Positions 38,890 to 52,022 of a stretch of DNA of 64,000 nucleotides are shown here, piece by piece. The DNA lies in contig QZKS01000020.1 in NCBI GenBank assembly GCA_003599865.1, positions 1-64,000 on the forward strand. Reading direction: 5' to 3'. How positions within the stretch are numbered: position 1 is the stretch's first letter; every line of letters starts with the position of its first letter. The position numbers were made by a program, and so were the translations under genes. Source of the stretch: Desulfobacteraceae bacterium. Its GTDB lineage: Bacteria; Desulfobacterota; Desulfobacteria; Desulfobacterales; SURF-7. The notes beneath the pieces were generated by a model. It had not been told where the DNA came from and ran no database searches. It saw only the letters and a list, made by a program, of their open reading frames with translations.

Positions 38890-39029
38890 TTCTTTTTCCG
38901 CAGATGAATATGGCTTTCTCTTGAATGGTTTCACGACTTCTTTCCGTAACACAACCCGGAACATTATAAAAGGAGATCCTTCTGTTTTTGATCCGAAAGC
39001 AAAAAACAATGGACTGGTTAATTGAACAG

Positions 39030-39042
39030 TGTTAATTTAACA
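39030..39042. promoter_or_regulatory. Palindrome upstream of the glycyl radical enzyme gene
   Basis: TGTTAA-T-TTAACA, a 6-bp perfect inverted repeat with one central base, 64 bases before the start. In size it resembles an operator half-site pair for a dimeric regulator; no regulator can be named. Confidence 0.4.
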
Positions 39043-39052
39043 GCTTACCGGC

Positions 39053-39084
39053 CCAACCGGCTAACGGGCTAACCGGCCAACCGA
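39053..39084. repeat. Four tandem 8-bp units (CYAACSGR) in the leader
   Basis: CCAACCGG, CTAACGGG, CTAACCGG and CCAACCGA follow one another with exact 8-bp spacing, ending just before the AAGGAG ribosome site of the glycyl radical enzyme. A degenerate fifth unit, CTTACCGG, lies at 39044-39051, one base off phase. They are transcribed leader or promoter DNA, not coding. Confidence 0.8.
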
Positions 39085-39105
39085 CCCACCACAAGGAGCT
39101 TTACC

Positions 39106-42100
39106 ATGGGAATGCATACACAACTTCATCGAGCCCTGAACCTGCTGCTCATGATGTCACCGAAACAGCTTGCAGCAGAACGGGGAAATCCAAAACTGCT
39201 GAACGGAATCACCCATATTGCACTCCGGATGATGGCGATTCAGTTCAACCTCCGGCCGTCCCTGAAAAAATACCTGAAAGGAAAGGACGGGTGGATCAAC
39301 TTTGCCGTGGGTTTCCGGTCTGCCGCCCGGAACGTCGAACAGGCCATCATCTTTCATGACGGCCGGGTACGGGTTCAGGGAACCATTCCGGGAAATGTCG
39401 ATGTCACCATGATCTTCCAGGACGGCGAAGCTCTGAAGGAAATGGCCTTGAGCACACCCAATGAGATGCTCAACCTGATCCTGAAAAACCGGATGGTTCT
39501 GGACGGAAACCTGTCCTGCCTGCAGGTGTTCAACTTTTTGATTTCACTCCTCATGGGAAAACTTCATGAGCAGATGCTGAAACGATCCCACCGAAATGAC
39601 ATCCGACAGCGAAAAATCACCTACGGAGGCTGCAAGCCCGGACTTTCAAAAACGCTCACCAGCCGAAAACAATACCGGATGCGAGGCAAAACAGGTGCGG
39701 ACCCGAACGTCCTGTTTCTGTCCGACCCCTACCTTTCCGAATATTCCATGGAAGACTTCCCGCGCCTGAAAACATTCTTTGACTTTCATTTTGATGCCCG
39801 ACCGGAAATATGCGCGGAACGTCCCCGCATCCTGACCGACTGGTATCGTGAAAACGGATTTGAATTCAACAGGCAGGGCGACCCATGGTTCCCGGAAATC
39901 CGACAGGGGCTGGCCTTTCAGCATCTGATGAAGCATAAAAAGCCGGTCATCCGAAAAGACGATCTGCTTGCCGGAACCACCACATCGAAAGAGGCAGGCG
40001 TGACCGTCTTCCCCGACGGCCAGGGAAATATGATCTGGGGCGAACTCAACTCCCTGGAGCAGCGGATTCTCATTCCCTTTTCCTGCTCCCGGGAAACTGC
40101 GGAAACCCTCCATCATGACGTCCTTCCGTTCTGGATGCATCGGAATTTCAAGGAATATGTCCGCAACCATTTTCATTATCCCATCTGCCAGAAGCTGGAT
40201 GAACGGTTTGTCGCCTACTTTGTATGGAAATCGGTGGGCATCAGCCATACCATCCCCAACCTGAAGAGGGTTCTGGACAAAGGGATTTCCGGTATCATTG
40301 CCGATATCCAAAACCGATTGACGGATAATTCCCTTGCAACAAGGCAAAAACAGACCCTGCAGGCCATGATCCACACCCTTAAAGGGGTTGTGCAGTATGC
40401 GGAAAACCTGGCACAGGAAGCCGTCCGTCTGGAACAAAAGGAGTTGAATCCCCAACGCAAGGAGGAATTGCAGCATCTGGCCCGGATCTGCCGCAATGTT
40501 CCGAGAAAACCCGCCGAAACCCTGGATGAAGCGGTCAATGCCATCTGGATTGTATGGGTCGCCCTGCATATGGAAAATGCCAATACCGGCCTCTCCTTAG
40601 GCCGCCTGGACCAGTGGCTCCAGCCGTATTTCCGGAAAGACATGGAAAACCTCACTGCCGATGGGGAAAAAGAAGACTATATCCAACATGCCGTTGAACT
40701 GACCGGCTGTCTGATCATGCGGCTGACCGACCATGTTCCGCTCCTGCCGGATATTGCCAACTATCTGTTCGGGGGCGCCGCCTCCACCCAGGCCATCACC
40801 CTGGGTGGGGTCACACCGGAAGGAGAGGACGGGGTCAATGACATGACCTATATTTTTCTCAAGGCCGTTGAACTCCTGCCGGTCCGGGACACCAATATCA
40901 ACGCCCGGTACCATGCGGAAAAAAACAGTGACAACTACCTGAAACGGCTTTGCGAGGTAAACATCATCACATCCGCCACGCCGATCATGCAGAGCGATAC
41001 CGCCATGATCAAAGCATTGACTCCGCATGGATATACGCCCGAAGAAATCAATGACTGGGCAGCCACGGGATGCGTCGAACCCTCGATTCAGGGCAAGCAT
41101 TTCGGTCACACCGGATCGATTCTGCTGAACCTGGTGGCCGCCCTGGAAATGGCCTTGAACAACGGCACCCATCCCCTGATGCAATGGAATGTCGGCCCGG
41201 AAACCGGCAGCATCGAAAAGGGCGACTTTCCGGCATTTGAAGACTTTTTTCAGGCATGGCAAATCCAGCAGCAATTTATCATCGACCAGGCGGTTGAACT
41301 GAACAACATGCTGGGCCAGGCCCATCAGGAACTCAGGCCCACGCCTCTCCTGAGTGCACTCATTGACGGATGCATTGAATCCGGAAGGGATCTGGTGCAC
41401 GGCGGTGCACAGCACAACACCTCCGGAACATCCAACATCGGGCTTGTCGATGTCACGGACTCCATGATGGTCATCAAAAAACTGGTGTTTGACGAACAAA
41501 GGATATCCTTTGCCGAACTCAAAAAAGCCGTTGATTCGGATTTCAGAAACAACCCGGCCCTGCATGCCATGGTTCAGAACCGGGTGCCGCTGTTCGGCTC
41601 CGGAAATCCGGAAGCCCTGGCCATGTGCCGGCGGATCACGGAAACCATCCATGACTGCTGGCGGAAACACAAAAACATCCGGGGCGGAAAATACACGGTC
41701 GGTTTCTGGTCCATGTCCCAGCATGTGGCGTATGGTTCCCTGTCCGGAACGCTTCCTTCCGGAAGACTGGCCGGCAAGGCTTTCACCCCCGGACTCACGC
41801 CAAGCCCCCGGGCATCCCGGAATTTTCTGGACAACCTGACCGCGGTTGCCGGACTCCCTCCGGAGCATATGGACAACAACATTGCCTTTAACGTCAAGCT
41901 GACACCCCATGCCGATGACACCCGGGAAACGACAACGGACAACATGCATGCTTATGTCAAAGCCTATTTTGAACAGGGCGGCATGCAGATGCAGTTCAAT
42001 GTCGTAACCTCGGAAATGCTGAAGGACGCCATGGCCCATCCCGACAACTACCGCAACCTGATGGTCAGGATTTCCGGATACAATGCCTATTTTGTCGCCC

Positions 42101-42153
42101 TGAACAAGGATATTCAGATTGAATTAATCGAGCGGACGGAGTATGGATTGTAG
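39106..42153 (+). CDS. Glycyl radical enzyme with N-terminal SCP2-like domain
   Basis: 1015 residues; AAGGAG seven bases before the ATG. Residues about 25-165 look like an SCP2 lipid-carrier domain (INFAVGFRSAARNVEQAIIF, then DGRVRVQGTIPGNVDVTMIF, and a C-terminal hydrophobic helix). The rest is a pyruvate-formate-lyase-like barrel. The thiyl Cys is residue 656 in ATGCVEPSIQ, with the Cys-x-Glu arrangement of eliminase-type members such as glycerol and choline enzymes. The glycyl radical is Gly991 in MVRISGYNAYF, 24 residues from the end. It is longer than typical members (780-900) because of the extra domain. No activating radical SAM gene lies nearby, so activation must come in trans. The substrate is unknown; a lipid-carrier domain suggests a hydrophobic one. 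The last 51 bp before the final base of the stop are duplicated at 47322. Confidence 0.88.
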   Translation: MGMHTQLHRALNLLLMMSPKQLAAERGNPKLLNGITHIALRMMAIQFNLRPSLKKYLKGKDGWINFAVGFRSAARNVEQAIIFHDGRVRVQGTIPGNVDVTMIFQDGEALKEMALSTPNEMLNLILKNRMVLDGNLSCLQVFNFLISLLMGKLHEQMLKRSHRNDIRQRKITYGGCKPGLSKTLTSRKQYRMRGKTGADPNVLFLSDPYLSEYSMEDFPRLKTFFDFHFDARPEICAERPRILTDWYRENGFEFNRQGDPWFPEIRQGLAFQHLMKHKKPVIRKDDLLAGTTTSKEAGVTVFPDGQGNMIWGELNSLEQRILIPFSCSRETAETLHHDVLPFWMHRNFKEYVRNHFHYPICQKLDERFVAYFVWKSVGISHTIPNLKRVLDKGISGIIADIQNRLTDNSLATRQKQTLQAMIHTLKGVVQYAENLAQEAVRLEQKELNPQRKEELQHLARICRNVPRKPAETLDEAVNAIWIVWVALHMENANTGLSLGRLDQWLQPYFRKDMENLTADGEKEDYIQHAVELTGCLIMRLTDHVPLLPDIANYLFGGAASTQAITLGGVTPEGEDGVNDMTYIFLKAVELLPVRDTNINARYHAEKNSDNYLKRLCEVNIITSATPIMQSDTAMIKALTPHGYTPEEINDWAATGCVEPSIQGKHFGHTGSILLNLVAALEMALNNGTHPLMQWNVGPETGSIEKGDFPAFEDFFQAWQIQQQFIIDQAVELNNMLGQAHQELRPTPLLSALIDGCIESGRDLVHGGAQHNTSGTSNIGLVDVTDSMMVIKKLVFDEQRISFAELKKAVDSDFRNNPALHAMVQNRVPLFGSGNPEALAMCRRITETIHDCWRKHKNIRGGKYTVGFWSMSQHVAYGSLSGTLPSGRLAGKAFTPGLTPSPRASRNFLDNLTAVAGLPPEHMDNNIAFNVKLTPHADDTRETTTDNMHAYVKAYFEQGGMQMQFNVVTSEMLKDAMAHPDNYRNLMVRISGYNAYFVALNKDIQIELIERTEYGL
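42102..42152 (+). repeat. 51-bp direct repeat, left copy (3' end of the glycyl radical gene)
   Basis: Begins GAACAAGGAT and ends ATGGATTGTA. Identical at all 51 positions to 47322-47372, 5220 bases downstream. In this copy it codes for the last 16 residues of the enzyme; the following base makes the stop TAG. Confidence 0.97.
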
Positions 42154-42160
42154 CGTTGAT

Positions 42161-42189
42161 TTGACATACAAACCGATCAATGCTTTACT
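42161..42189 (+). promoter_or_regulatory. Probable sigma-70 promoter of the cassette
   Basis: TTGACA (42161-42166), 17-base spacer, TTTACT (42184-42189, 4 of 6 matches to TATAAT). It lies eight bases beyond the stop of the glycyl radical gene, so the cassette would be transcribed on its own. The leader to the first gene is about 200 bases and has no evident riboswitch. Confidence 0.55.
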
Positions 42190-42394
42190 GTATGATCAGA
42201 ATCGATTGAGTTGCCGATTCTTTCCTGTTTTCTTTTGTATCATAGTATTTCCGTTCAAGCCTGAGCATACTATAATTTTGAATCCGCTGTAACGCCAGTT
42301 GCAATATCATCAGAAGAAATATTCATCCCAACGGCAGGCTGTGGAAAGGTCACTGTTGTTTCAGAATTTTTTTCCGATGAAAAAGGAGCTGAAA

Positions 42395-43156
42395 ATGCTG
42401 TTTGAATGCATATTGTATGAAAAAGAAAAAAACATCGCTACCCTCCGCCTGAACCGGCCCGAAGTATTAAATGCCATGAACCGCCAGCTCTGGCTGGACC
42501 TTCAGTCGGCACTTGACGATGCCGGCCATGACCGGGATATAAAAGTTCTTATTATTACAGGAGAAGGACGGGCCTTTTCAACCGGTGCGGACCTGAAGGA
42601 ATCCAAAACCCGGACCCTGGAAGAGTATCGCGATTATCTTGAAAAGCTGCAGGAGGTTTCCAGAAAAATCATCCGGTTTGAAAAACCGATTATCGCAGCC
42701 ATCAACGGATATGCCCTGGGATCCGGATATGAACTGGCCCTGGCCTGTGACATCCGCATTGCGGCTGATGATGCCCGGATCGGATCTCCCGAAGCAAAAG
42801 TAAATTCTTCGGTTACCGGTGGTGCCTTTCGTCTGATACAGGAACTGATCGGTCCGGGAAAAACCCGTGAACTGCTGTTTACAGCCAGAAATATCGATGG
42901 CCGGGAGGCTGAACGGATCGGTCTGGTAAATCTGTCCGTACCCGGCAAGCAATTAATGGAGACAGCTTTCCGGATGGCCGGGGAGATCGCGCAGAATTCT
43001 TCCTTTTCCATGCGGATGATGAAAAAGGGCCTTCAGATGGCAGACGAGGTCAGCCTGGACGCGCTCATGGATTTTGAAACAGAAGCATGTCTGGCATGCG
43101 TTTCCACACGGGAGCGGCAAGCCTCGTTGGAAAAATTTGAGTCGCGTAAAAAATAG
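42395..43156 (+). CDS. Enoyl-CoA hydratase/isomerase family protein
   Basis: 253 residues from the ATG at 42395, preceded by AAGGAGCTG; an upstream in-frame extension to 42299 lacks a ribosome site. Crotonase fold: IATLRLNRPEVLNAMN, oxyanion-hole segments GRAFSTGADLKE and INGYALGSGYELALACDI, and a Glu in GSPEAKVN with a second Glu about 27 residues later (KTRELLF), at the positions of the two catalytic glutamates of hydratases. It would hydrate an enoyl-CoA or rearrange a double bond. It is the first gene of the cassette, with an acyl-CoA synthetase following after 57 bases. Confidence 0.9.
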   Translation: MLFECILYEKEKNIATLRLNRPEVLNAMNRQLWLDLQSALDDAGHDRDIKVLIITGEGRAFSTGADLKESKTRTLEEYRDYLEKLQEVSRKIIRFEKPIIAAINGYALGSGYELALACDIRIAADDARIGSPEAKVNSSVTGGAFRLIQELIGPGKTRELLFTARNIDGREAERIGLVNLSVPGKQLMETAFRMAGEIAQNSSFSMRMMKKGLQMADEVSLDALMDFETEACLACVSTRERQASLEKFESRKK

Positions 43157-43213
43157 CTTATCATCAACAGACACATCGGAGCGGACAGCACCATCAAAAA
43201 AAAAGGAGATACC

Positions 43214-45373
43214 ATGTCTCTGGAACGGATTATGAACGCGGAATCCGTCGCTATTGTCGGGGCTTCAAGAACAGAGACCAAACGCGGATTTCAGGCAATA
43301 CGCACACTGCTGGATTCAAAATATGAAGGCAAAATCTATGCGGTTAACCCTGCTGAAAAAAGTGTGCTGGGATTTCCCTGTTATCAAAAGGTTTCTGATA
43401 TTGATGGTCCCATTGATCTTGTCCTGATTACCACCCCCGCGAAAACCATTCCAGCCATCCTGGAAGATTGCGGCCGGAAAGGCGTTGCCGGGGCTGTAAT
43501 TATTGCCGGCGGATTCCGGGAACTGGGAAAAGAAGGTCGTGATCTTGAAAATGCCCTTATGGCTGCCGCCCGCAAACATCATGTCCGATTCATCGGCCCC
43601 AATACCTCCGGCATGATCAATGTAAAGACAAACCTGAATCTGGTTGGCTTGGAAGATGTTCCCAAAGGGGATATTGCATTGATTTCACAAAGCGGCAATA
43701 TGGCCCTCACCCTCATCACGGAAGCCAAGGTCAAAAGCCGTAAAGGATTTTCCTATTATGTGGGAGTGGGGAACGAATCGGATATCCGGTTTCATGAATA
43801 TCTGGCGTTTTTCAAAAATGATCCGGATACAAAGGCCATTCTCATGTATGTGGAGGGAATGCGGGAAGGACGCCGATTTTTGCAGGAAGCATACAAGACA
43901 TCACTTTTAAAACCGATTATCCTTCTGAAAAGTGGCCACTCCTCCGTTGGTAAACGGTCGGCAGGCTCGCATACGGGCGCCCTGGCCGGAATTTCCGAGG
44001 TAGCACGAACAGCCTTTCTAAGGGCAGGCATTATCACGGTGGAAAAATCGGATGAGCTTTTCCCTGTTGCCGAGACCCTGTCCAATTTACCGGTGATCAA
44101 AAACAATCAGGTTGCCATTCTGGCAGACGGCGGAGGGCACGCCACTATCGCAGCGGATATTTTAACCGACCAATTGGGTATTAACCTACCGGAGCTCGAT
44201 GAAAAAACCAAAAAAAAGCTTCGGCATATTCTTCCGTTTACCGCCTCTGTCATCAACCCGGTGGATGTGGCCGGCGGTACGGATGCCGATCCTGCTCTTT
44301 TTGCGGAATGCGCCCGAATCCTGCTGAAGGATTCGAATGTCGGAGGACTCCTGATGGTCGGGCTTTTCGGGGGTTACGGAATTCGGTTTGCCGAAAGTCT
44401 CCATTGGAAGGAAGAGGATGCCGCGCATCAACTGGGAAAGCTGGTATTGAAAAGCGGAAAGCCGATTGTGGTGCACAGCCTGTATAGCTCCATAAAGCCT
44501 CACGCACTGGAACTCCTTCGTTATTATAAAATTCCGGTGTATGACTCGCTGGATATTGCCTGCCGCTGCATGGGCGCGTTGTCGGAAAGAGGCCGCTATC
44601 TGTCCAAGTATCATGCCAAGGTCAATTTTGTATTGAACTGGCAGGCCAAAGAAAAACCGGAAGCCCGTCAAATATTGGAAACAGCCCGGCAACAAAAGCG
44701 ACGATTTCTGCTGGAACCGGAAGCCAAGCGAATTTTCAAGCTGCACGGAGCATCGGTGAGCGATGATTCCATCGCTACTACAGCGGATGAAGCGGTGACC
44801 ATATTTAAAAAGGTGAAGAGCGAAGTAGCCTTAAAAATTCTTTCACCCGATATTCTTCACAAAAGCGATGCCGGCGGCGTTCGCCTTCATCTGGCCACGG
44901 AGGAAGATGTACGTCGAGCCTTTGAGGAAATTATGGAAAGCGGACACCGCTACGCCCCCGAGGCGGATATTCGCGGCATCCTGGTTTCCCCCATGGCGGA
45001 ACTGGGCCTTGAAATAATCATCGGCACCAAAATTGACGACCAGTTCGGGCCGGTGATCATGTTCGGCATGGGCGGTGTAATGGTGGAGATCTTAAAGGAT
45101 GTCGCCTTCCGGGTTTTACCCATATCTCCGTATTCGGCCGGCAAAATGATAGATGAGATACGATCGGCACCGATTTTGAATGGTATCCGGGGCCGCGCGC
45201 CCTATGATAAAAAAGCGATCCGGCGACTGCTGGTGCTTTGTTCGGAAATCGTGGAAGCTTACCCCGACATTGAGGAAATGGACCTTAACCCGGTGATTGT
45301 CTATGAAACCGGTATCCGGATTGTGGATGCCCGTATCATCCTGAAAGAGACCGAAGGTTCCGGAGAAGGTTGA
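43214..45373 (+). CDS. Acyl-CoA synthetase, NDP-forming (acetate-CoA ligase ADP-forming family)
   Basis: 719 residues; AAAAGGAG before the ATG. Single-chain fusion of alpha and beta parts. N-terminal CoA-binding domain (SVAIVGASRTETKRGFQAI, FIGPNTSGMINV), succinyl-CoA-synthetase-like flavodoxin domains with the phospho-histidine in GSHTGALAG (His253), and C-terminal ATP-grasp (VALKILSPDILHKSDAGGVR, then GPVIMFGMGGVMVEILKD and MDLNPVIVYE). It interconverts an acyl-CoA + ADP + phosphate with the acid + ATP, often for energy conservation. Since it shares a cassette with a hydratase, both may handle one CoA intermediate. The chain length of the substrate is not evident. Confidence 0.92.
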   Translation: MSLERIMNAESVAIVGASRTETKRGFQAIRTLLDSKYEGKIYAVNPAEKSVLGFPCYQKVSDIDGPIDLVLITTPAKTIPAILEDCGRKGVAGAVIIAGGFRELGKEGRDLENALMAAARKHHVRFIGPNTSGMINVKTNLNLVGLEDVPKGDIALISQSGNMALTLITEAKVKSRKGFSYYVGVGNESDIRFHEYLAFFKNDPDTKAILMYVEGMREGRRFLQEAYKTSLLKPIILLKSGHSSVGKRSAGSHTGALAGISEVARTAFLRAGIITVEKSDELFPVAETLSNLPVIKNNQVAILADGGGHATIAADILTDQLGINLPELDEKTKKKLRHILPFTASVINPVDVAGGTDADPALFAECARILLKDSNVGGLLMVGLFGGYGIRFAESLHWKEEDAAHQLGKLVLKSGKPIVVHSLYSSIKPHALELLRYYKIPVYDSLDIACRCMGALSERGRYLSKYHAKVNFVLNWQAKEKPEARQILETARQQKRRFLLEPEAKRIFKLHGASVSDDSIATTADEAVTIFKKVKSEVALKILSPDILHKSDAGGVRLHLATEEDVRRAFEEIMESGHRYAPEADIRGILVSPMAELGLEIIIGTKIDDQFGPVIMFGMGGVMVEILKDVAFRVLPISPYSAGKMIDEIRSAPILNGIRGRAPYDKKAIRRLLVLCSEIVEAYPDIEEMDLNPVIVYETGIRIVDARIILKETEGSGEG

Positions 45374-45447
45374 ACAACCATACAAAGCCCTCTCCGCCGT
45401 TGAGATTCCGGAAAGCAGCGTTTATGGATGAATATATGGAGGACAAG

Positions 45448-47250
45448 ATGAACCGCAACATGCCATTGAAAAACAAAATCCTGAAAATACTGGATCTGGC
45501 GCCGCCGCTCAAAGAGATCCTTTTTTCCGGCCGTGAGTCTGCGCCCAAACGGATTCAAATTCAGCAATTTTTAGAGGCCCGGCTGAGAGAAACGTTTGAC
45601 GAGAATTCTTCCATTCCACACATGGAATGGGTGATCGCCCGTGACGCCATACTGGCATTTAAAAATATTCTATCCATCAGAAACGAAGGGATAGCGGGCT
45701 TCAGCTTTCTCGGCTACATCAACGATCTGGTGCAGCAGGAGCATTATCATGATATTCCGCTTCCCTCAAAAGGATTTATCGCCGAATTGGATCATCTTCT
45801 GCGGGGTATCATGGGAAAAGCCTGCATTTACTCGGAAAAATTTCCGACTTTTCAAAAACATGAGGGCCGGCGGGCAGCGGTTTTACGTTCCAAAGACCTT
45901 TCCCGGATGATGCGGATTGCGGGAAAATTCATAAACGCCTATCCCAGTGGCCTGGATGACAAAGTGATCCGGCAGCGGAGCGAAAACAAATCGCGGATTC
46001 TTCGATATTTCAAGGCCTCGGAACTGGAATGGGAGAACTGGAAATGGCATACCCGTAATATCATCCGGGATGCCGACACGATGGCCGCTCTGGTGAAACT
46101 GACGGACGAGGAATATCAGGCCGTGAAGCTTGCACGCAGCTATCGAATCCCGTTCGGCATTACCCCGTATTATCTTTCTCTCATGGATTACGAGACAACC
46201 GGCAGGCGGGATGCGGCGGTACGCGCTCAGGTCATCCCGAGCCTTTTGTACGTAACCCGGATGAAGGAATTGCGTGACAAAAACAAAAAGACAATGGATT
46301 TCATGCTGGAGCGGGATACATCTCCCATTGAAGGAATCACAAGACGGTATCCCGGCATCGTTATTCTAAAACCGGTGTTAACCTGTCCCCAGATATGTGT
46401 CTATTGCCAGCGGAACTGGGAAATCGAGGATGCCTGCCGGCCGGATGCCGTCCTCGGAGAAGCCACCATGAACAAGGCTCTCCAATGGATTTCCGATACA
46501 CCTGAAATCAGTGAGGTACTCATAACAGGAGGGGATCCACTCCTGTTATCCAATGCCAAAATGGAAAACCTGCTGTTCAGACTATCGAAAATCACGCATA
46601 TCGAACGAATCCGCATCGGAACCCGTATGCCTGTCACGCTCCCCCAGCGCATTACCGATGCACTGGTGCGCGACATCAACCATTTTCATCATCCCGGCAA
46701 GCGGGAGGTGGTTATCGTCACACATTTTGAACACCCATACGAAATAACTCCCCAATCCCTTGAAGCTGTCCAGAGATTTCGACGATACGGAATCAATGTC
46801 TATAACCAGCAGGTCTTCACATTTTATAACTCACGAAAATTCGAGTCCGTGGCGCTGAGAAAAAATCTTCGCCTGATCGGTGTTACGCCATATTATACCT
46901 TCAGCACAAAAGGCAAGGAAGAAACCGAAGACTATCAGGTGCCCCTGGTCCGGCTGCTGCAGGAACAAAAAGAGGAGGCGCGGCTCATGCCCGGGATGCT
47001 GAGAACGGATGAAATCGTCTTTAACGTACCCGGCCTCGGTAAAAATTATCTGAGAGCCCGCCAGGATCATGACATCATCTCCATCCTGCCGGATGGCCGC
47101 CGGGTATACGAGTTCCACCCTTGGGAAAAAAAGCTCGAACTGGCGGACACCTATATGTACACCGATGTTTCCATTTATGACTATCTCCAGCGGCTCAAGG
47201 CAGCCGGAGAAAACCTGCCGGATTATAGAACGATATGGTATTACTATTAA
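45448..47250 (+). CDS. KamA family radical SAM protein (lysine 2,3-aminomutase-like)
   Basis: 600 residues from the ATG at 45448, chosen for the perfect GGAGG-N5-ATG; longer readings start in the end of the synthetase gene. The first 290 residues are an extension of unknown role, rich in charged helices. The radical SAM motif is CPQICVYC (Cys313, Cys317, Cys320). Downstream are ITGGDPLLLSNAKME (SAM/GGDP motif), RIGTRMPVTLPQRIT and, near the end, FNVPGLGKNY, where lysine 2,3-aminomutase has PGGGGK; the PLP lysine (Lys532) seems kept but the glycine run is shorter. It may be an aminomutase for an amino acid other than lysine, or an inactive-PLP variant. Last gene of the cassette. Confidence 0.82.
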   Translation: MNRNMPLKNKILKILDLAPPLKEILFSGRESAPKRIQIQQFLEARLRETFDENSSIPHMEWVIARDAILAFKNILSIRNEGIAGFSFLGYINDLVQQEHYHDIPLPSKGFIAELDHLLRGIMGKACIYSEKFPTFQKHEGRRAAVLRSKDLSRMMRIAGKFINAYPSGLDDKVIRQRSENKSRILRYFKASELEWENWKWHTRNIIRDADTMAALVKLTDEEYQAVKLARSYRIPFGITPYYLSLMDYETTGRRDAAVRAQVIPSLLYVTRMKELRDKNKKTMDFMLERDTSPIEGITRRYPGIVILKPVLTCPQICVYCQRNWEIEDACRPDAVLGEATMNKALQWISDTPEISEVLITGGDPLLLSNAKMENLLFRLSKITHIERIRIGTRMPVTLPQRITDALVRDINHFHHPGKREVVIVTHFEHPYEITPQSLEAVQRFRRYGINVYNQQVFTFYNSRKFESVALRKNLRLIGVTPYYTFSTKGKEETEDYQVPLVRLLQEQKEEARLMPGMLRTDEIVFNVPGLGKNYLRARQDHDIISILPDGRRVYEFHPWEKKLELADTYMYTDVSIYDYLQRLKAAGENLPDYRTIWYYY

Positions 47251-47321
47251 TGAAAAGCGCTATTACCATCATACCGGAATCGATCCGGCATCCAGCCTTT
47301 ACCCATCTTTTCATTTCACCG

Positions 47322-47372
47322 GAACAAGGATATTCAGATTGAATTAATCGAGCGGACGGAGTATGGATTGTA
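47322..47372 (+). repeat. 51-bp direct repeat, right copy
   Basis: Perfect copy of 42102-42152, beginning 72 bases after the KamA stop. Here it follows no coding frame; if read in the same frame it ends with TAA. It lies 45 bases before the hydrolase start, so the original glycyl radical gene would have ended just there. Confidence 0.97.
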
Positions 47373-47417: not shown

Positions 47418-48365
47418 ATGAAAAAACAAATTGTATTGCTGATTCAGATTTTATTGCTGGTTTTCCTGGCCGGATGCGCCTCCATGCAGGATAGCATCTA
47501 CCGGTTTGGGATCGACAGGGAAAGAAGCAAGTCGGATCTGGTTTTGAAAACCATTGATGTCGAAGGGGAAACCGTCGCCTATCTGGAACGGGAAGGAAAA
47601 GGGGAAACCGTTGTTCTCCTGCACGGATTCACGGCAGATAAAAACAACTGGCTCCGTTTTGTCCGATACCTTCCCGAAACCTACCATGTACTGGCGATCG
47701 ATATGCCGGGACATGGTGACAATGTTCAGGATGTGACCAAATCATACGACCCGGTTTCCTTAAGCCGGGGGGTTGGAAAAACCGTCTCTGCCATCGGCAT
47801 GAAGCGGTTCCATATAGCCGGAAACTCCCTTGGCGGACTGGTTTCCAAAATTTACGCTTCCGAACATCCGGAAAAAGTCATCACACTGGGATTGTTTGAT
47901 TCTGCCGGTGTGACATCGCCTACACCCAGCGAATTCAGGATCGCTTTGGAAAAAGGAGAAAATCCCTTTGTCGTCAAAACCCGGGATGACTATGACCGGC
48001 TGGGGGAATACGCTTTTCATGATGAGCCCTTTCTGCCATGGCCGGTCCACTCGGTCATGGCCCGGAAGTATATCAGCCGGAATGACTTCAATCAGAAAAT
48101 GTTTGCAGATCTCAAATCCAGCATTGTATTTTCGGACGAATCCGCCCAGCGGGAACTGCTGGCCGGCCTAAAAATGCCGGTCTTTGTCATCTGGGGAGAC
48201 AAAGACCGTCTGCTCCATGTTTCCAGCGTTGAGATTTACAAAAAGGAATTACCGATGGTGGAAACCGTGATTCTGGAAAACTGCGGGCATCTGCCCATGC
48301 TGGAACAGCCGGAAGAATCAGCCATGCATTATGCGGAATTTATCGGCAAACATCCGGAACCGTAA
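47418..48365 (+). CDS. Lipoprotein alpha/beta hydrolase (lipase/esterase-like)
   Basis: 315 residues; GGGAGGG before the ATG. Lipoprotein signal: KQIVLLIQILLLVFLAGC, Cys at the lipobox. Alpha/beta hydrolase core: oxyanion loop VVLLHGFTADKNNW, nucleophile elbow AGNSLGG (Ser), acid Asp in WGDKDRLLH, and catalytic His in ENCGHLPMLEQPEE. It resembles cold-active bacterial lipases and monoacylglycerol hydrolases. It would act at the outer face of a membrane on esters or lipids. Its position directly behind the right repeat suggests that it formerly followed the glycyl radical gene as a two-gene unit. Confidence 0.87.
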   Translation: MKKQIVLLIQILLLVFLAGCASMQDSIYRFGIDRERSKSDLVLKTIDVEGETVAYLEREGKGETVVLLHGFTADKNNWLRFVRYLPETYHVLAIDMPGHGDNVQDVTKSYDPVSLSRGVGKTVSAIGMKRFHIAGNSLGGLVSKIYASEHPEKVITLGLFDSAGVTSPTPSEFRIALEKGENPFVVKTRDDYDRLGEYAFHDEPFLPWPVHSVMARKYISRNDFNQKMFADLKSSIVFSDESAQRELLAGLKMPVFVIWGDKDRLLHVSSVEIYKKELPMVETVILENCGHLPMLEQPEESAMHYAEFIGKHPEP

Positions 48366-48408
48366 TGTTTTGAGCAAAGGCGGAAGACTTCTTTAAATTA
48401 TTTTTCTA

Positions 48409-49806
48409 TCAGTTGGCCTTATGACGTGTTGAAAACAGATAAACCGTTCGCCGGCTGTCAGGTATTGGCTGCTGGTCTATCAAATCAAAATGACAGCGAA
48501 ATATCCGCTCAAAGTTATCCTGTTCATAACCGGGAAAAATATCCTTTCGATTTTGCAATAACTTCTTCACCTGGCTATCTTCTTTCTGCACGAATTCAAT
48601 AATGAGTTTATTTGATATTTTTGCTAAAAATCGTGCGATTATTTCCAGAGGCAGATTATGGGATATGGATAGGTGATGAATCAAGCCAAGTGCCAGAACC
48701 ATATCGGCCGGTCCCCGATCCTGCAGTGACATCCTTTCACTGTTGCCCCATCCTATGGCCGGTGAAGGGGTCGCCAGGTTGAGCAGCAAGGGTAAAACTT
48801 TCTCTTCACCTTTTTGCCTGCAAGCCAGATAGTTCAACTCAACGCAAGCCGTGTCGATATCCCACGCACAAACCATTTTGCAATACTTCGCGGCAATACG
48901 ACTGAAACGGCCGGTATTCGCCCCCAGATCCCATGCAATATGAATTGCAAAACGCTGCATAAAGGCATCTACAATCCTGTCTTTCGATGCCATGGCATTA
49001 TCCTGATAGTTATTATTGGCGTCGTAATAATCGATCCATTCAGTATTTTCCGGCACCCATTTCAGGGAATTGATACTGGTCCGCAAACTGTCAATCAACG
49101 CGATAAAGGCCTTTTTGGAAAATGTTTTTTTTGAAAATTGTTCAGTCACCGACCTGCCCGCATTTCTTATCTGCGATCTAGCATGAAGATGAATGTGCAG
49201 ACCCAATGAAATACTAAAGCGGGTTTTGAAAGGCAGCAACCTGCCGGCCAATGACAACGGGATACCGTCGATATTGTTTACCAGCAACTGGTTCAGGCTG
49301 ATATCGGTTTTTGCCATCAACGCCAACGGTGCCAAGAAATGTTGGCAAAACTGCCGATAGGCAACCCATGGTTCGCCTTCCTGATATCGTTCAAAGGACA
49401 GCGTATCTATAAAAATCGGCCTGCCTTTGTGGAACTGGACATTATAGGCACTGGCGTCCTTTAGTGAAAGATTCTTTTGGAGTGCCATCCTCTGGATATC
49501 CAGTGTCAGCAATGCGGCATCCTTCAATTGACTGAAAGACCACTCATAAGGATATGAAATCATATCGATTCGTTCGGGCTGGATTACCTTATAAACCAGG
49601 TTATCCGGCTCGGCGACCTCAATCTCCTCATGCGGAATCAGCCATGCCTGCCTGACTAATGCCCTATATAACCCACTATTCATAAAAACTTCATAATTGG
49701 GCCGGTAACAGCTATTGATCTGCCGGTAAAGTATGCCGTTTTTTTCAAAAAGAAACCCGGATGGATCACGGAAGGAACCCGCTATGGCTGTATTCATGAC
49801 AGACAT
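48409..49806 (-). CDS. NoeA-like class I SAM methyltransferase
   Basis: 465 residues. The N-terminal half resembles the nodulation protein NoeA family (SGFLFEKNGILYRQINSCYR, KDASAYNVQFHKGRPIFIDT, FCQHFLAPLALMAKT). The C-terminal half has the Rossmann methyltransferase core: AWDLGANTGRFSRIAA (SAM motif I), VCAWDIDTACVELNY and MVLALGLIHHLSIS. It probably methylates a surface glycan or a lipid-linked intermediate; the acceptor is unknown. It lies in a minus-strand trio with a small membrane protein and a sulfatase-like protein, and codon choice looks less GC-rich than in the flanks, which may indicate transfer. Confidence 0.78.
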   Translation of the reverse strand: MSVMNTAIAGSFRDPSGFLFEKNGILYRQINSCYRPNYEVFMNSGLYRALVRQAWLIPHEEIEVAEPDNLVYKVIQPERIDMISYPYEWSFSQLKDAALLTLDIQRMALQKNLSLKDASAYNVQFHKGRPIFIDTLSFERYQEGEPWVAYRQFCQHFLAPLALMAKTDISLNQLLVNNIDGIPLSLAGRLLPFKTRFSISLGLHIHLHARSQIRNAGRSVTEQFSKKTFSKKAFIALIDSLRTSINSLKWVPENTEWIDYYDANNNYQDNAMASKDRIVDAFMQRFAIHIAWDLGANTGRFSRIAAKYCKMVCAWDIDTACVELNYLACRQKGEEKVLPLLLNLATPSPAIGWGNSERMSLQDRGPADMVLALGLIHHLSISHNLPLEIIARFLAKISNKLIIEFVQKEDSQVKKLLQNRKDIFPGYEQDNFERIFRCHFDLIDQQPIPDSRRTVYLFSTRHKAN

Positions 49807-49857
49807 CCTGAAAAAAAGAAGTAGGTATCAAAATTTGTTTTCATGGTCGGCAGGGGG

Positions 49858-50103
49858 TTATTCATCTTTCCTATCGGCTTCAGTTTTATTTTCCAAAGAA
49901 TGATCCATTGTCTTGCCAAGCATGCTTGCGAAAAAGGTTTTCAGCCGGGACCAATACATTTTGACAGTGAACAGGGTTCCCATGATGCCGGCAATCAACA
50001 TCTGCAACACAAAGCTGCCGGCACCAGGATCAAGATAGGCAAAAGCAGGAGCTGCAAAACCAGTCAGGCATACGACAGTGACAAATAAACATTTTAATTT
50101 CAT
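49858..50103 (-). CDS. Small membrane protein with YLDPGAGS motif
   Basis: 81 residues. Cleavable signal peptide (LFVTVVCLTGFAAPAFA) followed directly by YLDPGAGSFVLQML, then one membrane segment and a basic/acidic cytoplasmic tail (DHSLENKTEADRKD). Short proteins with a Y-L-D-P-G-x-G-S start are commonly encoded beside sulfatase-like membrane enzymes; I know no assigned function. It sits between the methyltransferase and the sulfatase-like gene, 52 and 54 bases from each, so all three are probably one operon. Confidence 0.75.
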   Translation of the reverse strand: MKLKCLFVTVVCLTGFAAPAFAYLDPGAGSFVLQMLIAGIMGTLFTVKMYWSRLKTFFASMLGKTMDHSLENKTEADRKDE

Positions 50104-50157
50104 TTAATGAAACCTTTTATATTGTTTTTTTAGTGAATGATTTCATACTGGAAATTT

Positions 50158-51882
50158 TTAATCAACAGGCGGCAAAAAAATATCGCCGAGTTCCCATGGC
50201 ACCTCATAATGGCTGCCGGTGATCAAAAACTCCTGCATAGGGGGTGCATATTTCTCGCGCCATTCATTTTTTCTCCAGCTATAAAATCGGAACACACGTT
50301 CCCGTAGCGCAGTCTCTTCAATCCGCATGATGGATTGGAAGCCGAACGGATACCCCCATCCCATGATATCACTTATGGTATCCGGCACATCCGCCAAAGA
50401 AACCATCTTATCTGATATCTGGAGATCGCCGGCCTGGCTGGGCAATTTGATTGCGAGCATGGGGGATGCCAGTGATGCTACCCATTCCGGAGCCTCCGTG
50501 CCATCTGCAAATTTAATTGTGGCCCCTTGCCGGTGATTACCCGTCCAGCCGCCATGATCGCCATGTATAAGAATAAGTGTATTGTCATAGACACCGATCT
50601 CCCGCATCCGTTCAAACAATAGGACTATGGTATCAAGGGTACACTTGGTCTGGATTGTCAGGGTTTTCCTGGTCATCGGATAAACCTCGCCCGCATAACC
50701 ACAAGCGCTATTAACCACCATGGGATTATGGGTATTCATCACATGCAGATATTTGTAGGTCGGCGTGCCGCGGTTAGTTGCCATATTACGGATAAAGCTT
50801 TGTAAAAAATAAGTATGTTTGAAATAGTTATATTGCATGCCTTTCGGGCCGGCAAAAATCGAGGTCAGGCGCCATTTTTGACCGTTATAAATATAGGGCT
50901 TTAAAAAATGGGGAGCAGCCCTGAACAAGACCAAATCCATAATTTTTGCAACTTCCTCCAGTTGCGTGTTAAGTTTGCTGAGATTATAAAGGTTATCATG
51001 TTTCAGGTGAGAATAACGTTTTTCCAGATACTTCGTCCCTGCCCCCAAATCAATGGCGTATCCTTTGTCGCGCGCCAGATTGATGATATTTTTTCCGGCC
51101 AGTACCTTATCGACGTAATCATCCTGTGGCATCTGGTTGTCATACAATTGTCCGGCAAGGAACGCCGGTACGGAAAAACGCGTATAGGGGAATACGGTAA
51201 GCGTTTCCGGATAATAGGTGAAACCGCTGAAGGCTTGGCGATATGCCCTCCCAAGGTCTGGGATATGGATCAGATCGTTAAATACATCTGACTGAAAACC
51301 ATCCACTATCAGGTGTAACACATTTCTTTCCGTAGAAAAACGGTAAAGGTTTTCCAGCGCTCTATCTGATTTGTAATCTTCATACCTGATATGATCATAA
51401 TGTTGTAAAGATTGCACTGACACCGTCAATAATTGCAAGACAAAAACCGCAACAGCAGATTGTACCATACGTTTTTCGTATTTCCTGGAGAGAGCGACCG
51501 CTGTTCCAAGCAATACCAGCCATGCGGCCATATCCACCCAGCCGCGCCAGACATCCTTGCTCCAGTCGATCAGACGGCCGTCAAGCAGGCCGTAGTCCCA
51601 TAAAAACACATTACTTTGCAGCCAAACCAATATGCCGAACATAGCCAGGCTTGCCGTCAAATATGACCTGATTTTCGGTGCCAACACATGGCCAACCAAA
51701 ATCAAAATCAGTAACAAGAGCAAAGCCGGCACTAAGCACAATCTGCACAGGGCAAGCAGCGCAATATTCATCTCGTCGAGGTTGGTGAAATACAAACCGG
51801 CCGGTACGAACACGAAAAGCTGAGCGGCAAGAATCGTCGCACATACCATCAGACCCTTTTTGTTATTGTCAGATTTCATCAT
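50158..51882 (-). CDS. Membrane sulfatase-like (alkaline phosphatase superfamily) hydrolase
   Basis: 574 residues. Five N-terminal membrane segments, then a periplasmic catalytic domain of the sulfatase/phosphoglycerol-transferase type. Visible metal and catalytic regions: HLIVDGFQSDVFND, TVFPYTRFSVPAFLAG (probable nucleophile Thr or Ser), LHVMNTHNPMV and LILIHGDHGGWTGN. It is likely to transfer or remove a phosphoglycerol, phosphoethanolamine or sulfate group on an envelope glycan. The architecture is that of LTA-synthase-like and OpgB-like enzymes, but the substrate is unknown. First gene of the minus-strand trio. Confidence 0.8.
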   Translation of the reverse strand: MMKSDNNKKGLMVCATILAAQLFVFVPAGLYFTNLDEMNIALLALCRLCLVPALLLLLILILVGHVLAPKIRSYLTASLAMFGILVWLQSNVFLWDYGLLDGRLIDWSKDVWRGWVDMAAWLVLLGTAVALSRKYEKRMVQSAVAVFVLQLLTVSVQSLQHYDHIRYEDYKSDRALENLYRFSTERNVLHLIVDGFQSDVFNDLIHIPDLGRAYRQAFSGFTYYPETLTVFPYTRFSVPAFLAGQLYDNQMPQDDYVDKVLAGKNIINLARDKGYAIDLGAGTKYLEKRYSHLKHDNLYNLSKLNTQLEEVAKIMDLVLFRAAPHFLKPYIYNGQKWRLTSIFAGPKGMQYNYFKHTYFLQSFIRNMATNRGTPTYKYLHVMNTHNPMVVNSACGYAGEVYPMTRKTLTIQTKCTLDTIVLLFERMREIGVYDNTLILIHGDHGGWTGNHRQGATIKFADGTEAPEWVASLASPMLAIKLPSQAGDLQISDKMVSLADVPDTISDIMGWGYPFGFQSIMRIEETALRERVFRFYSWRKNEWREKYAPPMQEFLITGSHYEVPWELGDIFLPPVD

Positions 51883-52022
51883 TATTCAAATAGATTTCCT
51901 GGTGCATAGAATGGCAATAGCAGTTTATAGTCTATCTTTGATTTCGCTCTTTGAAAACATACGTTTTTATTTTTTTATCCTACCAGTCTCGCCGTCCCCT
52001 TTTGGCAAAAGTGATTCTATGA

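Follow-up and report, generated by a model that had tools for sequence, protein, structure and literature searches.

A three-gene operon inserted at the 3' end of a glycyl radical enzyme gene, whose last 51 bases are duplicated, in a Desulfobacteraceae bacterium

Results

The window, a 64,000-bp stretch of contig QZKS01000020.1 from a Desulfobacteraceae bacterium (GCA_003599865.1), carries at 39106..42153 on the + strand a glycyl radical enzyme gene that is the target of the insertion described here. The encoded protein (1015 aa) has PFL-like and Gly_radical domains, with the motif RISGYNAYF near its C terminus, the catalytic Cys656 within GCVE, and an N-terminal extension of about 200 aa outside the PFL domain. 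This extension, also present in close relatives, resembles by eye a sterol-carrier-type domain (39106-39790; no Pfam match). A TetR-type regulator gene precedes the glycyl radical gene in genomes G001 (L028 5902-6627) and G006 (L030 6741-7454), and is missing at 39010-39105 in the window. The original downstream neighbor of the glycyl radical gene is an alpha/beta hydrolase gene with a lipoprotein-like N terminus (47418..48365, + strand). Directly 3' of this hydrolase lies a second strain-specific segment (48366-52022), which encodes three proteins: a methyltransferase-like one of 465 aa with no Pfam match, one of 81 aa, and one with a sulfatase domain. In G001 this position contains nothing but a short GGCCCGTTAGCCCGTT array, G002 is just as short there, and no direct repeats of at least 10 bp were found at the segment's ends.

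Between the glycyl radical gene and the hydrolase, a three-gene operon is inserted exactly at the end of the former, with the last 51 bases of the gene duplicated and the gene itself undamaged. The two copies of the repeat (42102..42152 and 47322..47372, both + strand) are identical at 51/51 positions when compared within the window, just as the original prediction had it, and the match extends leftward to 53/54 with one mismatch. By chance, an exact 51-bp direct repeat would be expected about 4e-22 times in 64 kb, and the 5.01-Mb genome contains exactly two copies of the segment. Sequence and gene positions also agree with the predicted asymmetry, in which the left copy forms the end of the glycyl radical gene and the right copy is non-coding, lying in an intergenic stretch. 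The left copy stops two bases into the stop codon, and the third base comes from the cassette, giving TAG instead of TAA. The cargo without the repeat (42153..47321, + strand) spans 5,169 bp and is absent from two congeners; counting one repeat copy, the added DNA amounts to 5,220 bp.

Pfam and TIGR families bear out the three enzymes predicted between the repeats, all encoded on the + strand: a crotonase (enoyl-CoA hydratase/isomerase, 253 aa, 42395..43156, PF00378), an ADP-forming acyl-CoA synthetase (719 aa, 43214..45373, PF13549, PF13607 and PF13380) and a KamA family radical SAM protein (45445..47250, TIGR00238), which is 601 aa long from the ATG at 45445 or 626 aa from the TTG at 45370 and carries CxxxCxxC and PGLGK motifs. 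A promoter had been predicted here as well and did not hold up: sigma-70-like matches on the + strand fall only within genes or at gene ends, and shuffled sequence gives equally many. Functionally, the only solved relative found is lysine 2,3-aminomutase, and the operon may allow an amino acid to be activated and degraded via a beta-aminoacyl-CoA, through the joint action of a KamA-type aminomutase, an acyl-CoA synthetase and a crotonase. The cargo begins and ends with non-coding DNA. The left end (42153..42394, 38% G+C) gave only short, weak matches of 23-29 bp in the 96 genomes searched, and the right end (47251..47321) is not common to the operons found elsewhere.

Evolutionarily, the cargo operon comes from another bacterial family. 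Searching for the cassette at other places, as originally proposed, recovered crotonase, acyl-CoA synthetase and KamA genes in the same order at three loci, with respective identities of 84/88/82% at L072 (G145), 85/89/80% at L132 and 70/74/62% at L118. DNA similarity to these operons spans 42389-47252 and leaves out 236 and 69 bp at the two extremities of the cargo. The neighbors, read in L072 and L132, differ from those in the window, and no relative of the glycyl radical gene was found at any of the three loci. Because these other copies stand without a glycyl radical neighbor, they bear out the earlier caution that adjacency alone does not make the cassette enzymes partners of the glycyl radical enzyme. 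The KamA tree, in answer to the suggested comparison of phylogenies, gives a foreign placement: the window's KamA groups with those of L072 and L132, from other families, at support 100, and apart from the KamA genes of its own family (G004, G007); KamA was not found in three congeners. Codon use, which had been proposed as a second comparison, yielded only a weak contrast. Since third-position G+C of the cargo genes is below that of the glycyl radical gene and not below that of the other neighbors, composition is indecisive.

We sought the glycyl radical gene in 96 related genomes, and the empty site that had been expected of an insertion was present in two congeners. In G001 (L028), the glycyl radical gene, whose protein is 82% identical to that of the window, ends in a single copy of the 51-bp segment (45/51 bases equal), with the alpha/beta hydrolase about 40 bp further on; G002 (L029, 89%) has the same gene order and likewise a single copy, and in neither congener was an element seen at this gene end. 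BLAST matches to the left and right of the cassette overlap on congener DNA by exactly 51 bp, and the inserted DNA therefore amounts to 5,220 bp. Six sites set both congeners apart from the window, and at each of them the two copies have the base of the window species; the second copy is therefore of the species' own type and not a distant donor's. The two copies differ at 0/51 positions (95% upper bound 5.7%). Because they are undiverged and carry the species' own bases, while the glycyl radical gene shows a difference of 48% from G001 at four-fold sites, the insertion is younger than the split of the window species from its congeners. These comparisons show the insertion and its polarity, the foreign nature of the operon, and a duplicated gene end that is the species' own; the gene acquisition is real and probably recent.

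Only the three enzyme genes lie inside the cassette, in line with the predicted lack of an integrase, and neither an integrase nor a remnant of one was found at 42102-47372. The cassette ends have no terminal inverted repeats and the cassette no transposase gene; with a duplication of 51 bp, a DDE transposon was rejected. The locus has no palindromic core or attachment-type palindrome, and the insertion site no tRNA or Rfam target. Among 194 genomes, the glycyl radical gene end occurs in only three, all of the genus, and it is absent from the phages and viral contigs searched; KamA had no match on plasmids or viral contigs. Elsewhere in the genome there are eleven Phage_integrase matches and no match to serine recombinase families.

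When about 2.39 Mb of the 5.01-Mb genome was compared with itself, direct repeats that occur in two copies, measure 38 bp or more and are spaced 0.4-40 kb apart were present at only three loci, the window cassette and two others, and there were no two-copy inverted repeats. At the phosphomannomutase locus (contig C3 130039-132971; L195 10039-12971), 179-bp copies of the gene's 3' end, 2.75 kb apart from start to start, flank an insert that encodes a fragment of an integrase N-terminal (SAM) domain (PF13495) adjoining the far repeat, a DUF6602 protein and a PIN protein. In G003 the phosphomannomutase gene end occurs once, near a gene that lies further on in the window genome. The copies differ at four sites, and since at 3/4 of these the far copy has a base unseen in the congeners or the near copy, the far copy looks like a decaying duplicate. 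The insert is a decayed integrative element, possibly with defense cargo. At the other locus (contig C4 102995-105290; L200 2995-5290), a lone crotonase gene sits in a mosaic built from duplicated fragments of two genes, one antitoxin-like and one ArgZ-like. Its far side carries 131 bp from the antitoxin-like gene upstream, and its near side two stretches, 123 and 63 bp long, from the gene downstream. This layout may be the decayed remains of a single crossover by a circle carrying both flanks. Over the three loci, repeats end at -1, +10 and +8 bp relative to the stop codon and measure 51, 179 and about 123 bp, with no significant common motif. As a control, we scanned 84 short loci, most of them from other genomes and 1.18 Mb in total. 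The repeats there were tandem arrays, a long duplication, or dispersed copies between genes; no gene end flanking an insert was seen, with only L126 and L135 read closely. A dispersed repeat family around GGATCAGGTCCGGCATGACGGAAT has about 34 matches in the scanned part of the genome (e.g., contig C3 108428-108489).

Discussion

Several known systems share features with this locus. Cis-mobilizable elements (CIMEs) have lost their integration and transfer genes and kept attL and attR (PMC5704250); like them, the cassette consists of cargo only, flanked by direct repeats of a target gene 3' end (putative attL and attR), with integration and transfer genes, including any integrase inside, absent. 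Unlike in CIMEs, no sister element with an integrase is known at this site (no related complete element was found there in viral contigs, phages or 194 genomes), and the cargo is a metabolic operon only, its mobilization being putative. Streptococcal integrative conjugative elements use the 3' ends of rplL, guaA, lysS, rpmG and rpsI, with 12-54 bp repeats (PMC4701971), and so resemble the cassette in repeat length and in targeting the 3' end of a protein gene whose product stays unchanged or nearly so, but they carry integrase and conjugation genes and target conserved housekeeping genes. Among the Dehalococcoides ssrA islands (PMC3146451), 15 are without an integration module and, as in the window, hold metabolic cargo between gene 3'-end repeats, although their target is a tmRNA gene and their repeat 20 bp long, and their sister islands have serine recombinases, the families that found no match in the window genome. 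Haloquadratum walsbyi likewise has strain-specific DNA bounded by direct repeats, a single copy of which marks the corresponding site in the other strain, but those repeats are 4-20 bp and mostly mark deletions (PMC3119063). In form, the cassette thus seems to fit CIMEs or the ssrA islands that lack an integration module. With an empty site in close relatives and a foreign phylogeny of the cargo, as in genomic islands, we read the insertion as an otherwise rather ordinary gene acquisition of a known kind, a CIME-like genomic island.

The original prediction had offered an integrase acting in trans, a degraded element or a single-crossover circular intermediate. The two further gene-end loci lead us to interpret the cassette either as an integrative element with cargo only, decayed or driven in trans, or as the single-crossover insertion of a circle, and these loci favor the degraded element and the single-crossover circle over an integrase in trans. 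Mechanistically, we propose, with a probability of roughly one half, that circular DNA bearing the foreign operon joined the chromosome by one crossover in the terminal 51 bp of the glycyl radical gene. The metabolic genes, originally those of another family, would have arrived as part of a circle that also carried a copy of the glycyl radical gene end; one reciprocal crossover within those 51 bp would then have rebuilt the gene with its protein unchanged and left the second copy of the gene end on the far side. The likeliest form would be a cargo-only, integrase-less, cis-mobilizable element whose tyrosine integrase was lost or acted in trans, with a RecA crossover on the 51-bp homology as a close alternative. 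Both the circle and the recombinase are what we infer from the empty site, the foreign operon, the C3 and C4 loci, the eleven Phage_integrase matches and the lack of Ku. Counted against the circle are the lack of an integrase or palindrome at the locus, the occurrence of the gene end in no phage and no genome outside the genus, a target enzyme that is not a widely conserved housekeeping one, the lack of a motif clearly common with the other two repeats, and a repeat of host type at every variable site, as local duplication would also give.

Such local duplication is the serious rival to circle insertion: linear foreign DNA would have been captured in the course of repair or replication, either by template switching, in which the copying strand re-enters the chromosome 51 bp behind its exit point, or by fill-in of a long staggered break, and the target duplicated without any circle. 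We consider this possible, though rather unlikely. The species' own base in both copies at all six variable sites would follow from it, and it would sit well with the missing integrase and inverted ends, with cargo ends unrelated to the operon ends elsewhere, and with repeat lengths that vary freely over the three loci; however, Ku was not found in the genome or twelve relatives, which weakens end-joining capture, the repeat ends lie closer to the stop codon than random breaks would be expected to, even with selection for an intact gene, and at the C4 locus fragments from the two flanks have ended up on opposite sides. That last layout, resembling a decayed Campbell-type insertion with both flanks, speaks instead for a circle recombined by RecA, with no site-specific recombinase, through a chance piece of the species' own glycyl radical gene. 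Perfect identity over 51 bp is in principle sufficient for RecA, and the genome encodes a ComEC homologue for DNA uptake. Yet a RecA-only crossover accounts neither for the integrase fragment of the C3 locus nor for a homology that runs out just at the stop codon, and we regard it as improbable.

Very little credence is due to an ancestral cassette lost in the congeners by recombination between the repeats: such loss would also leave one copy at the empty sites, but repeat copies identical at all 51 positions beside four-fold sites that differ by 48% from G001 argue against it, as do the foreign placement of the operon and the lack of KamA in three congeners. Less credible still is an assembly artefact. 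The assembly is a draft of 100 contigs, but common read lengths exceed 51 bp, the cassette lies inside a 268-kb contig, both flanks match the congeners, and the operon is real elsewhere. A more speculative and distinctly improbable proposal is that an undescribed, integrase-free route acquires metabolic genes by duplicating 51-179 bp of host gene 3' ends with the gene left intact; if true, its footprints in this lineage would be the three loci in 2.39 Mb.

Returning to the inserted operon itself, the locus provides a clean case, with its empty site, of a complete metabolic operon joining a genome beside an unrelated glycyl radical gene, and is as such a warning against predicting pathways from gene neighborhood. 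Together with the two further loci, it makes integrase-less, gene-end-duplicating acquisition countable and testable in a little-studied group.
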